The notes beneath the pieces were generated by a model that was not told where the DNA came from, did no database searches, and saw only the letters and a list, made by a program, of their open reading frames with translations. A program made the translations under genes and the position numbers. Below are positions 54,382 through 58,195 of a stretch of DNA of 64,000 nucleotides, piece after piece (position 1 is the first letter of the stretch; each line of letters opens with the position of its first letter). Source of the DNA: Natrinema hispanicum (GTDB lineage Archaea; Halobacteriota; Halobacteria; Halobacteriales; Natrialbaceae); NCBI RefSeq assembly GCF_900111485.1, contig NZ_FOIC01000003.1:62001-126000 (forward strand). Direction: 5' to 3'.

Positions 54382-54570
54382 TTAAATCGCGCCTGCGTCC
54401 GACGACTCGTCGTAGAAGAAGTACGCGGCGACCCCGGCTAACCCGAACGCGAGCGTCACGAACGGCCACTTGCCGGCCTCGGTCTCAGTCAGGCGCGCGT
54501 GGCCGGTCACGAACAGTGCGAGCCCGACGTGGGCAACGAGCGTTGCAACGACAAACGCCTGTGGGTCCAT
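54382..54570 (-). CDS. Small two-span membrane protein
   Basis: A 62-residue protein: MDPQAFVVATLVAHVGLALF as span 1, a short loop with HARLTETEAGKW, then FVTLAFGLAGVAAYFFY as span 2 and an acidic tail. An upstream in-frame ATG at 54624 adds a further hydrophobic stretch, so a three-span form is possible. Convergent with pitA. No function known. Confidence 0.6.
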   Translation of the reverse strand: MDPQAFVVATLVAHVGLALFVTGHARLTETEAGKWPFVTLAFGLAGVAAYFFYDESSDAGAI

Positions 54571-54970
54571 GACTCGAGGGTTCGACGCAGCGATCAAAGC
54601 CGTTACGAAGAGGACAGCATCCAATTCCTCACAAGGTATTGATTTCAGATAGAGACGAATGAATCAACTGATCAGTGTCTCTGCGAACGTATCGCAGAAT
54701 TGTCTCCCAGTTGGAGCACATGTTTTGGGAGGCGTGCGAGATACACAGCGCAAGTGCAACACGAACTGACGGGTGAATAGCGGGGTCCGTGAACGCTCAC
54801 TACAGGGACAGGAGGTCCATTGAGAATTTAGAAACACTCAGCAATCTACTACCAACATCACATCATGAAATCATTCTCGAGTCGTGTCACTGTATTATAT
54901 GGAATGCTGGAGTGGATGCGTGTGAGTCGGCCGCAACTGCTGCTGTGGGCCACTCAGAGAGGCACGAGCC
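54571..54970. other. Intergenic region before the DUF1254 gene
   Basis: AT-richer sequence with no coding frame supported by composition. A TATA-like TATTATATG near 54893 could serve the DUF1254 gene with a leader of about 50 nt. Confidence 0.45.
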
Positions 54971-56107
54971 ATGCGTAACGAGTCAAATGACACGACACCA
55001 GAATCGGACTTCGAACCGCTTCGGGCAACGCGTCGAACCGCGCTTCGCGGGGCAGGTCTCGCCGGAATACTCGCGCTAGCCAGTGGCAGTGCCACTGCCA
55101 GCCAAAACTCCTCGGAGGCGAACACCCAGCAGACGGACCAGCAGTCGTCAGCAGCTGACGAGTCGATCCCAGTGACGTGGGAGAACTACCCACGCGCCAA
55201 CTGTCATGCTTCGTTCCAGGCAACCGTCGACGAGGGCGGGTTCGGACAGCTCTATAATTTCAGAAATATAACTCCAGTCAGCGAGCAGTTGGACGTCGAG
55301 CCAAATCGTGACACGGTCTACTCACTCGGGGTGTTCGATTTGACCGAACCAGTCTCTATCACGCTCCCAGACAGTGGTGACCGCTACCAGTCAATGAGTG
55401 TCCAGAACGAGGATCAATACGTGAAGATATTCGCCACCGACGCCGGCGAGTACACGATCACACAAGATATGGTTGGGACTCGGTATGCTGGCGTCCTGAT
55501 CCGCATGTTTGTTGACCCGAACGATCCGACTGATCTGGACCAGGTCCGGCAACTCCAAGACGAGATCAGCGTCGAACAAGCATCGTCTGGCTCGTTCGAG
55601 ATCCCCAACTGGGATCAGCAATCGTTCAAACAGCTCGACGAGGCGATGACAACGGTTTTTAGAACGCTCGAAGACTTCTCGGGCGCGTATGGTGACGTCG
55701 ACCAGGTCGACCCGGTGAAATTCTTCGTCGCCAGCCCGTCGGGGTGGACCGGCCCCCCGCAGCCATCGGAAGCGCTGTTCCTCCAACGGATTCCAACCCA
55801 GAACGACGGCACAACGCCATACACCCTCACCGTTGGCGATGTCCCGGTCGACGCGTTCTGGTCGGTCACCGTCTACAACAGTGATCTCTTCCTCGAGGAG
55901 AACGAGTTCGACGCGTATTCGGTCAACAACGTGACCGCAGAACCAAACGACGACGGCAGCGTCACGATCCACTTCGGTGGCGACCCCGACCAGCCGAACT
56001 TCATCTACACGCCAGAAGGATGGCACTATATCATCCGGCTCTACCAACCGCGCGAACCAATCATCGACGGAAGTTATCAGTTCCCCGAAGCCCAGCCGGT
56101 CGAGTGA
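54971..56107 (+). CDS. Tat-exported DUF1254/DUF1214 protein
   Basis: A 378-residue protein. The N-terminus includes LRATRRTALRGAGLAGILAL, a twin-arginine signal. The DUF1254 domain follows at about residues 75-185 (PNRDTVYSLGVFDLTEPVSI and RYQSMSVQNEDQYV), and the DUF1214 domain occupies the C-terminus (VPVDAFWSVTVYN, then a final YIIRLYQPREPI). Such proteins are secreted in bacteria and archaea; their enzymatic role is unknown. No operon partner is seen. Confidence 0.9.
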   Translation: MRNESNDTTPESDFEPLRATRRTALRGAGLAGILALASGSATASQNSSEANTQQTDQQSSAADESIPVTWENYPRANCHASFQATVDEGGFGQLYNFRNITPVSEQLDVEPNRDTVYSLGVFDLTEPVSITLPDSGDRYQSMSVQNEDQYVKIFATDAGEYTITQDMVGTRYAGVLIRMFVDPNDPTDLDQVRQLQDEISVEQASSGSFEIPNWDQQSFKQLDEAMTTVFRTLEDFSGAYGDVDQVDPVKFFVASPSGWTGPPQPSEALFLQRIPTQNDGTTPYTLTVGDVPVDAFWSVTVYNSDLFLEENEFDAYSVNNVTAEPNDDGSVTIHFGGDPDQPNFIYTPEGWHYIIRLYQPREPIIDGSYQFPEAQPVE

Positions 56108-56228
56108 GGGAACCGCACGGATATCGGTCTTGAGGCTTCAGGCGACTGAATCGTCGCGATATCAAACGTCGACTCGTCTTCCATCTTCAACCGACGAGCG
56201 TACTGCACTGGATTCACACCGAATACAG

Positions 56229-56509
56229 CGGCCTGTGGCCGAGAGCCGTCCGACCCAACGGAAGCACACGCTCTTCCGAGCAGCGAGGGACCAACAGTCG
56301 GCGCTTTACGCCGACGACGTCGCGGACGCGAGCGTCCGCTCAACGAGGGATAACGAGCAAGCGGGCCGACGACCGACCCGTAGGGGAGAGGAGTGCTTTT
56401 GATCAACACTAAGCGGGAGCGTCGCTCCCGCGAGGTCCGAGAGAGCTTTGCTCTCTCAAGATTTCACCGAGGGGCGTCGCGAGCGAGACGCTACGCGCTC
56501 GCTCGCGAC
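56229..56509. other. Array of six perfect stem-loops in a convergent gap
   Basis: Six perfect inverted repeats occur in 281 bp: CGGCC/GGCCG (56229-56241), GTCGGCG/CGCCGAC (56297-56315), GCGGACGC/GCGTCCGC (56322-56339), GCGGGAGCG/CGCTCCCGC (56413-56431), GAGAGAGC/GCTCTCTC (56439-56457) and GTCGCGAGCGAG/CTCGCTCGCGAC (56476-56509). They lie between the 3' ends of the DUF1254 and DUF5611 genes. No open frame fits. The region could be a structured RNA, a bidirectional terminator or REP-like repeats. Confidence 0.7.
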
Positions 56510-56530
56510 AGACCGCAGTGTAAAAGGGTG

Positions 56531-56914
56531 TTAGAAGTCGTGGTCGCCGTCGTCTTCGACTTTCCGCTTCATCGAGTCGCGGCGAGACTTGGCGTCGCGG
56601 CCGGTCGCCTCGAGCAGGAAGTCGTTTTTGGCGTCGACGGCATCGGCGGCGGCCTCGAGTTCGTCGGGGCCGAGTTCGGTGGGGTCGCGTTCGTGGAACT
56701 CGACGCCGAGTTTGTCCTTCTTGCCGGAGTACTCGACGGCACCGACGACGATCTTCTCGAAGACAGGGTTGGCAGGCTCCTCGATGCAGAAGAGCTCGCT
56801 GCCCTTGTACTCCTGGGTGCCCGTGATCGGACCGAAGTAGTCCTCGACGGTCGACTCCAGATCCGGAATTCGCTCCTCGAGATATTCACCGCGGCGCATC
56901 TTGTACTCCTTCAT
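56531..56914 (-). CDS. DUF5611-type conserved protein
   Basis: A 127-residue acidic protein: MKEYKMRRGEYLEERIPDLE at the start, then VEDYFGPITGTQEYKGSELF and a basic-acidic C-terminal helix DAKSRRDSMKRKVEDD. It matches a conserved haloarchaeal family I know as DUF5611. No function is known. Its 3' side is the stem-loop array. Confidence 0.8.
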   Translation of the reverse strand: MKEYKMRRGEYLEERIPDLESTVEDYFGPITGTQEYKGSELFCIEEPANPVFEKIVVGAVEYSGKKDKLGVEFHERDPTELGPDELEAAADAVDAKNDFLLEATGRDAKSRRDSMKRKVEDDGDHDF

Positions 56915-57109
56915 GGGTTGGGAGAAACACGGCGGAGCGTTTACCTCTTTTCATAGCCGACGTTTCGGTCTCCTGACCGATCACTGCTACTGAACGCGCT
57001 TGTCGGGCTACGGGGGTGCGTATTCGACCACCGGCTGGGTGGGTCGTCGACCGATCGGCCGGCCAGCAGCGGTGTAAGTGAACGGACGACCACAACTGGT
57101 GGGTGACGG

Positions 57110-58195
57110 CTACTGATGCTCGCGTTCACTGAGATAGCCTTTGCGACAGTCAGGACAGATGTCGCCGGCGCGCAGCGAGGTGCGGTCGCCGCTGGCGACG
57201 TAGTCACACCGCGGACAGTAGAACTCGGTCGGAACGTCATCTGCGGTGTCATTTTCGCGTTCGGTCGGCGTCGGAACCGAGTCGGCCCACTCGATACCGC
57301 TCGCCGACTCGGACGAGGCGTCGTTGGTCGCGTCGTCAGTCGCGTCGGTCGGGGGCGCTGCGGTCACTGACCGAGCGTCGTTTCTGGTATCTGCTGGCAC
57401 GTCGTTGTCAATCACGACCGCGTCGTCGTCGGTCGAGGGCGGGTCGGATGCCACGTCTTCGGTGTCAGTCTCAGTGTCGGTGTCATCATCGGGCCATGCC
57501 GTCGGGGAGGAGTCGGCACCGACCGGTGGACCGACGTCGCTCGAGTCGGGCCACTCACCGTGTTCGCGGTCCCGTTCGGGGGCATGATCGTCGTCCTCGA
57601 GGATCTCGCCGTCATCGACGACGGGGTCGCCGTTTTCGTCGGTCGGGAGATCGATATCGTCGGTGGCCGTGGTCTCCGCGGCGGCAGTCACCGTGTCCGA
57701 GTCAGTGGCTGTGCTTTCAGCGGTCGACTCGGTGGTGTCGTCGATACCATCGACATCGGTCTCGGAACCGGATTCGTCGGCGTCGATGAACTCCGCATCC
57801 GACTCGATGGCAGGTTCGTCAGCGTCAACGAACGCAGCGTCCCCTCCGGAATCGGGTTCGTCGGCGTCGATGAACTCCGCATCCGTCTCAGTGACGGATT
57901 CGTCAGTATCGATGACCGCGGCGTCCGTTTCGGACGTGAGTTCGTCAGTAGCGTCTGGCTCGAGGGGCGGTTCAGTTGGCTCGGGATCGTGATCGTTGGG
58001 GAGTGAGTCGGCATCTGTTCCGGCGGCAAGGCTGGTCACCTCAGTGTTCTCGCTGATGACGTTGCGCTCGCCACAGCGGGAACACTCTTCGAATTCCTGG
58101 ACGGTGACGACGACCTCACTGCCCCGTTCTTCGCGCTCGTGTTCGACTTCGGTGTCGCCGAAGTCGTGTCCGAGCAGCGAACATCGCAGGACCAT
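57110..58195 (-). CDS. Zinc-ribbon protein with acidic repeat linker (DUF7093-like)
   Basis: A 361-residue protein. The N-terminal 60 residues (MVLRCSLLGHDFGDTEVEHE, with CSRCGE) and the C-terminal 45 (FYCPRCDYVASG and CPDCRKGYL) are conserved zinc-binding parts of a family I know as DUF7093. Between them is an extremely acidic low-complexity linker containing tandem units of the type (E/A)FIDADE. The repeat copies number at least five between about residues 95 and 150. The role is unknown. Confidence 0.8.
   Translation of the reverse strand: MVLRCSLLGHDFGDTEVEHEREERGSEVVVTVQEFEECSRCGERNVISENTEVTSLAAGTDADSLPNDHDPEPTEPPLEPDATDELTSETDAAVIDTDESVTETDAEFIDADEPDSGGDAAFVDADEPAIESDAEFIDADESGSETDVDGIDDTTESTAESTATDSDTVTAAAETTATDDIDLPTDENGDPVVDDGEILEDDDHAPERDREHGEWPDSSDVGPPVGADSSPTAWPDDDTDTETDTEDVASDPPSTDDDAVVIDNDVPADTRNDARSVTAAPPTDATDDATNDASSESASGIEWADSVPTPTERENDTADDVPTEFYCPRCDYVASGDRTSLRAGDICPDCRKGYLSEREHQ
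57770..57935. repeat. In-gene tandem repeat (acidic linker)
   Basis: Successive ~45-60-bp units encoding FIDADE/FVDADE-type motifs separated by variable acidic residues. Repeat number may vary by slippage. Located within the zinc-ribbon protein gene. Confidence 0.65.

Follow-up and report, generated by a model that had tools for sequence, protein, structure and literature searches.

The six perfect stem-loops between the DUF1254 and DUF5611 genes in the window (the whole 64,000-nt stretch of Natrinema hispanicum DNA that we analysed) represent a single copy of a modular, dispersed hairpin element; this copy occupies about 56235-56532 on the minus strand (Table 1). On the basis of sequence comparisons, we infer that this modular, probably mobile repeat may act as a transcription barrier facing away from the gene that it abuts, a function to which we give slightly less than an even chance.

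All six stem-loops described in an earlier sequence-only reading were present at the places noted, with stems of 5-12 bp and loops of 1-10 nt, and both the convergent orientation and the named domains of the neighbouring genes were borne out. That reading had taken the 281-bp gap as the unit. The stems held, but the true unit runs from the DUF5611 stop codon at 56532 to about 56235; we set this far end by eye from a conserved CCGGCCAC-type block. It had also stated that no open frame explains the sequence. Frames do cross the hairpins, among them a 187-aa ORF at 56393-56956 (+), antisense to DUF5611, but they look spurious and overlap real genes. At other copies, ORFs of this sort could become misannotated genes.

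Table 1. The window copy of the element, its parts and the flanking genes (positions in the window).
Feature	Position	Strand	Remarks
Whole element copy	56235-56532	-	Read outward from the DUF5611 stop codon; matched by copies in the same genome and genus and by the orthologous site in relatives
P1 5' arm	56520-56532	-	T4 tract at 56522-56525; covers the final two bases of the DUF5611 TAA
Hairpin A, inside P1	56476-56509	-	12-bp stem; exchangeable cassette between copies
P1 3' arm, inner half GTGAAA	56462-56467	-	Pairs with TTTTAC; from sequence and family covariation
Inserted two-hairpin module B+C	56409-56461	-	53 nt; stems 56439-56457 and 56413-56431
P1 3' arm, outer half GTGTT	56405-56409	-	Pairs with AACAC; from sequence
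Conserved linker GGAGTGCTTTTGATC	56390-56404	+	T4 tract at 56397-56400 on the plus strand
Conserved block GGTCGTCGGCCCGCTTGC	56358-56375	-	Family form: GGTCGTCGGCCCGCTCGC
Module F' region	56260-56357	-	Hairpins 56322-56339 and 56297-56315, and a decayed one near 56260-56277
Far end: hairpin F remnant and CTCGGCCAC block	56235-56259	-	Alignment by eye
Stem-loop 1	56229-56241		5-bp stem, loop of 3; straddles the far edge of the element
Stem-loop 2	56297-56315		7-bp stem, loop of 5
Stem-loop 3	56322-56339		8-bp stem, loop of 2
Stem-loop 4	56413-56431		9-bp stem, loop of 1
Stem-loop 5	56439-56457		8-bp stem, loop of 3
Stem-loop 6	56476-56509		12-bp stem, loop of 10
DUF1254+DUF1214 gene	54971-56107	+
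DUF5611 gene	56531-56914	-	Stop codon included

P1, the conserved linkers and the variable hairpins are common to the copies, which by eye are about 110-450 bp long and hold no convincing ORF, too short for a transposase. Outward from the gene, the family order is the P1 5' arm (CCAACCTTTTGC or CGAAATTTTAC type), a short conserved internal loop and hairpin A; then the P1 3' arm (GCAAAAGGTTGG or GTAAAATTTCG), the linker GATCAAAAGCACTCCTCC and the variable hairpin D; and then block TCGGTCGTCGGCCCGCTCGC and hairpin E, ending in GCTCGCGG. At the genus level an extra part lies beyond hairpin E, consisting of GCCTGCCCTTCCCCG, hairpin F and CCCGGCCAC. In the window copy, the inserted two-hairpin module splits the P1 3' arm into halves; in copies lacking this module, P1 is single and continuous. 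A shorter variant without hairpin D, in which T5-T6/A5-A6 tracts replace T4/A4, occurred at L292, L294, L162, L120 and L126, occupying sites that hold the long form in relatives. Past hairpin E, the copy at the end of the thermosome gene in the same genome as the window (L071) resembled another haloarchaeal family (f2), unlike the other copies in that genome, a continuation that hints at possible transfer between lineages.

Comparing the gap with its own genome produced matches at many unlinked places, the best with 80-91% identity over 50-180 nt, and model R1 found 17 copies there (E<=0.01). Within the genus, all 29 genomes had matches when a close copy was used as the query. Across the class, R1 matched 136 of 242 genomes and 51 of 73 genera at E<=1e-5, with no match in the remaining 106 genomes. 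Of 294 genomes sampled from the phylum, 33 matched at E<=1e-4, all of them within the window's own order. Copy numbers in the class and phylum searches are lower bounds because only 12 and 10 candidates, respectively, were scored per genome. The exact core pattern was seen, among the matches listed, in Natrinema, Haloterrigena, Natrialba, Halovivax, Natronorubrum, Halostagnicola, Natronococcus, Halopiger and others. Of 30 loci from other families, 29 were inspected by eye and 28 showed the core; L105 was a false match inside a gene, and L095 was left out of this check. The conserved linkers and T4 tracts were retained across the whole order, and plasmids of the same archaeal group carried pieces of the element. 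We rejected a phage origin, with zero matches in phage records. Finding the same element dispersed also ruled out a structured RNA confined to a single locus. The palindrome cluster and terminator that the sequence-only reading had offered as options fit the placement at gene borders described below, but a dispersed, modular, order-wide family lay beyond its reach.

The outer stem P1 covaries strongly. A MAFFT alignment of nine copies without module B+C gave P1 as 11 consecutive pairs, several with compensatory changes. R1 was built from these nine copies, so copies with the module score lower. Among 79 matches at 73 loci, orthologs included, 22 of the 24 modelled pairs changed on both sides. 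Some 90.9% of cells in this alignment (A2) paired, the true register was the best of seven slides (35-50% in the slid versions), and none of 500 shuffles reached any of five measures; A2 was fitted to the model and so leans toward its own structure, but the earlier MAFFT alignment had already shown covariation. Relatives thus kept the pairing with compensatory changes, and the loss of pairing that would have counted against the initial interpretation was not found. Many short stems form in GC-rich genomes, and one could take those in the gap for chance palindromes. However, none of 200 dinucleotide shuffles of the 281-nt stretch folded as well on either strand (z -4.62 and -4.81), and together with the homologous copies elsewhere and the covariation this refutes chance, to which we assign almost no probability.

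Strong covariation and folding beyond every shuffle would also suit transcription of the gene-sense strand into a structured non-coding RNA or 3'-UTR regulator that works in trans or affects mRNA stability. The strand tests disfavoured a classic structured RNA, one of the original options, because G-U showed no excess over A-C on the gene-sense strand. Hairpins with a single mismatch had 9 G-T versus 15 A-C on that strand, and one-sided pair changes between close relatives comprised 33 G-T, 38 A-C and 46 others. Counts so nearly even offer no hint that a sense RNA is under selection, and they fail to demonstrate selection for RNA folding on either strand. Two-sided changes in close relatives included 28 compensated pairs versus 11 non-pairing double changes. 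Loops of the same hairpin were mutually reverse-complementary in 16 of 123 differing pairs. Draws from the loop pool predicted 7.9 (sd 2.2), and 2 of 2000 draws reached the observed count; the excess suggests inversion at the DNA level. Taking the wobble without clear strand bias together with this excess, we attribute the pairing at least partly to upkeep at the DNA level. Rfam gave zero matches in window 54500-57500 even at E<=5 and zero at gathering score for six loci with copies, which also speaks against a regulatory RNA. A kink-turn reading of the internal loops was weighed by eye and dropped, and a scan for sigma-70-type promoters found none.

Most copies sit at one of two points, with P1 adjoining either a stop codon or a position 31-45 nt upstream of a start codon. 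In 52 of the 79 matches, P1 began -3 to +3 nt from a stop codon that closes a frame of 100 codons or more, versus 0-6 at 16 shifts; rows with a late R1 match start were re-anchored on the P1 motif by script. Four of the 27 rows without a stop-codon match were excluded from the divergent-start test: L063, L046 and L058, in which P1 lies at the stops of shorter frames, and L054, in which P1 was misplaced. Among the 23 others, 12 had a divergent ATG that opens a frame of 80 codons or more and lies 31-45 nt from P1, versus 0-3 at 20 shifts, although six of the 12 come from two orthologous sites, one contributing four copies and the other two. Because orthologous copies are included, the placement counts are not independent. 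The 31-45 nt point would fall just upstream of the TATA and BRE boxes of leaderless archaeal genes. All placed copies had the same orientation, with P1 toward the gene border. Genes preceding copies in the window's own genome encode a TFIIS-type transcription factor S, ribosomal protein L10e, a thermosome, diphosphomevalonate decarboxylase-like and amidophosphoribosyltransferase-like proteins, an acyl-CoA dehydrogenase and an Lrp/AsnC regulator, and a PhoU gene precedes a copy in another family; of ten proteins tested, two lacked a Pfam match. In other genera, convergent genes often had two copies on opposite strands, with P1 at each stop (L086, L093, L096, L102 and L087). An element that begins right at stop codons would again suit a 3'-UTR regulator, but copies upstream of a divergent gene would lie off its mRNA. 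We regard a regulatory RNA as improbable, also because module content varies freely among orthologs.

Close relatives (for example, L111 and L112) have a small membrane-protein-like gene directly after DUF5611. In the window (54382-56107), such a gene lies at about 54382-54570 (-), separated from DUF5611 by the DUF1254 gene. The convergent DUF1254/DUF5611 arrangement is therefore a local change.

To follow site history, we compared 60 orthologous stretches from four close relatives, covering 15 of the 17 sites in the own genome; the DUF5611 site was treated separately, and L069 had no usable match. R1 matched 50 of the 60, plus two partially. At the DUF5611 downstream site, 22 of 29 genus genomes matched at E<=1e-3, and in other genus members we saw decayed remnants, a variant of reduced length or another neighbouring gene. 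Outside the genus, 6 of 30 matched at the same threshold, and seven genomes of other genera were seen by eye to have the same DUF5611 neighbour gene and no element. Occupancy of this site is thus old in the genus and was gained or lost between genera. The acyl-CoA dehydrogenase site was near-empty in four relatives. The element is dispensable.

Pairwise alignment of orthologous copies revealed 42 different clean indels, each 18 nt or longer, with recurring lengths of 53 nt (B+C, at many sites), 60 and 109-111 nt (in hairpin A), 52 nt (F) and 48-51 nt (E). Module B+C (~53 nt) was cleanly present or absent between orthologous copies at other sites, and module F' varied in this way among relatives at the DUF5611 site and at other sites. 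Most indel modules (~40-110 nt) folded better than shuffled sequence, with z of -2 to -7; the F hairpin itself (39-41 nt) mostly did not, and neither did a few large indels. The hairpin-A module A'/A'' had a 60-nt form with ends TCGTTCGA and TCGAACGA and a 109-111-nt form that shares the left end but agrees less exactly at the right. The 111-nt form had relatives on plasmids of the same archaeal group and three partial matches in its own genome. Stand-alone hairpin-A modules occurred elsewhere in the genome (L014, L015, L016, L020 and L024). Three of them adjoin palindromes resembling the ends of transposon-like elements, and two adjoin tRNA-Gly or tRNA-Val genes, with apparent remnants of tRNA 3' ends.

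Taken together, homologous copies at unlinked places, presence or absence at the genus level and clean gain and loss of modules argue that the element probably moves. Target duplications flanking the element were absent at most loci, the exceptions being L103, L104 and L106 (repeats of 30-91 bp); with repeats at these loci only, target-site duplication of the ordinary transposon kind looks exceptional. At L103 and L106, the element was tandemly duplicated, and the duplicated unit takes in part of the neighbouring gene end (91 bp, 100% identical, or 39 bp, 92%). At L104, the element is flanked by an exact 30-bp repeat spanning the start region of the gene downstream, as if insertion had recreated the gene start.

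Mobility may be the whole explanation. The element would then be a non-autonomous mobile repeat without a cellular job, surviving where insertion is harmless, between a stop codon and the next promoter, and it would lie flush with functional sequence because unneeded spacer was later lost. Modules gained and lost cleanly, presence that differs between genera beside the same neighbour gene, the tandem duplications and flanking repeat just described, stand-alone copies of one module and the excess of inverted loops, pointing to DNA-level processes, all fit such a repeat. It sits less easily with the constant orientation of placed copies, the high occupancy of orthologous sites (50/60) and the order-wide retention of linkers and T4 tracts, and no transposase is linked to the element. 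We consider a repeat without a job possible but on the doubtful side.

If the element is instead a transcription barrier, the P1 side would face the protected gene, and transcription arriving from the far side would meet GC-rich hairpins first, followed by the T4 tracts (CTTTTGATC and, after it, that in P1). It would end there, before running antisense into the gene or across its promoter. In the window, the DUF1254 transcript would be kept from running antisense into DUF5611, and the DUF5611 transcript may itself end at the T4 just past the DUF5611 stop codon. The repeats would spread and be renewed at the DNA level, through insertion of double-hairpin modules and recombination between copies. 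A one-way barrier fits the paired copies that lie between convergent genes. It is also supported by the occupancy of orthologous sites, the placement at stops and starts and an asymmetry on the incoming strand: 23 of 83 copies had hairpins with C.T mismatches on the element strand, equivalent to tandem G.A opposite, and none had the reverse, the tandem G.A strand being that of the transcript arriving from the far side. Against a barrier stand the short T4, the dispensability of the element, the 106 class genomes without a match, and a consensus terminator scan that found one site (shuffle mean 0.4), on the minus strand, opposite to the strand expected of a barrier. On the supporting side, in the available part of an in vivo study of Haloferax (PMC7237163), T stretches terminate transcription, with 95% for T5C and 59% for one hairpin; the T4 in P1, near-constant just after stop codons, is shorter than that T5C example. 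More broadly, we tentatively propose, while thinking it rather unlikely, an order-wide, self-nesting hairpin DNA system in which self-moving double-hairpin modules build gene-border elements that would mark gene and promoter edges and serve as one-way barriers, their arms being held identical by DNA-level copying and not by RNA selection.

If the barrier reading is true, haloarchaea would gain a recognisable, repeated punctuation mark at gene borders, and the many natural copies per clade could serve the study of archaeal termination and antisense control. The element would provide a new system in which to study the spread of palindromes and the upkeep of perfect pairing, and it accounts for hairpin-rich gaps and spurious frames that annotation leaves blank or may mislabel.

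In the open-access literature we found no description of this hairpin element family, nor do the available portions of PMC3402447, PMC3403918 and PMC4060949 describe it. The PATEs and SMR-A of Haloquadratum walsbyi are, in the accessible part of their description (PMC3119063), haloarchaeal, non-coding, palindrome-rich, nested and without clear target duplication, and SMR-A are ~110 bp long, have inverted ends and insert into palindromes. Compared by description only, our element resembles both in being a haloarchaeal, non-coding, palindrome-rich sequence with nesting, and its 109-111-nt module resembles SMR-A (HqIRS42, HqIRS43 and HqIRS55) in its length of ~110 bp, inverted ends and insertion into palindromes. 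Unlike them, as far as that part of the source goes, it has a long multi-hairpin backbone with conserved linkers, lies at gene borders and spans an order. We took PATEs to be too short for a transposase, free of target duplication and bounded by near-terminal palindromes related to IS605-type transposon ends, and MITEs to carry terminal inverted repeats that match those of a known transposon and to duplicate their target. In length and lack of a convincing ORF the element agrees with PATEs, and the A'/A'' module has the length and inverted terminal repeats of SMR-A.

Bacterial REP/BIME sequences are dispersed extragenic palindromes, often 3' of genes, with stems that vary yet pair, and are mobilised by a REP-associated Y1 transposase that recognises a foot tetranucleotide; compared by description only, the haloarchaeal element is longer, is built of modules and extends across an archaeal order. 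Mobile double-hairpin elements of fungal and other mitochondria are short two-hairpin units that insert and whose stems vary yet stay paired. They are alike in their paired two-hairpin units and differ in belonging to organelle genomes, and we know of no homology between them and the haloarchaeal element. The available part of PMC2800124 mentions this class. The Haloferax terminators, in the portion of PMC7237163 at hand, likewise combine T tracts and hairpins just downstream of genes but are not described there as a repeat family, and the T tracts here are mostly T4 inside a covarying stem. Bacterial intrinsic terminators, in the accessible part of PMC8355165, include hairpin clusters, alike in having several hairpins in a row between operons but bacterial and not a homologous dispersed family. 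Thus, the element probably belongs to a kind already known, that of dispersed, palindrome-rich and probably mobile repeats, and is unusual in its order-wide backbone, nested modules and strict placement at gene borders.
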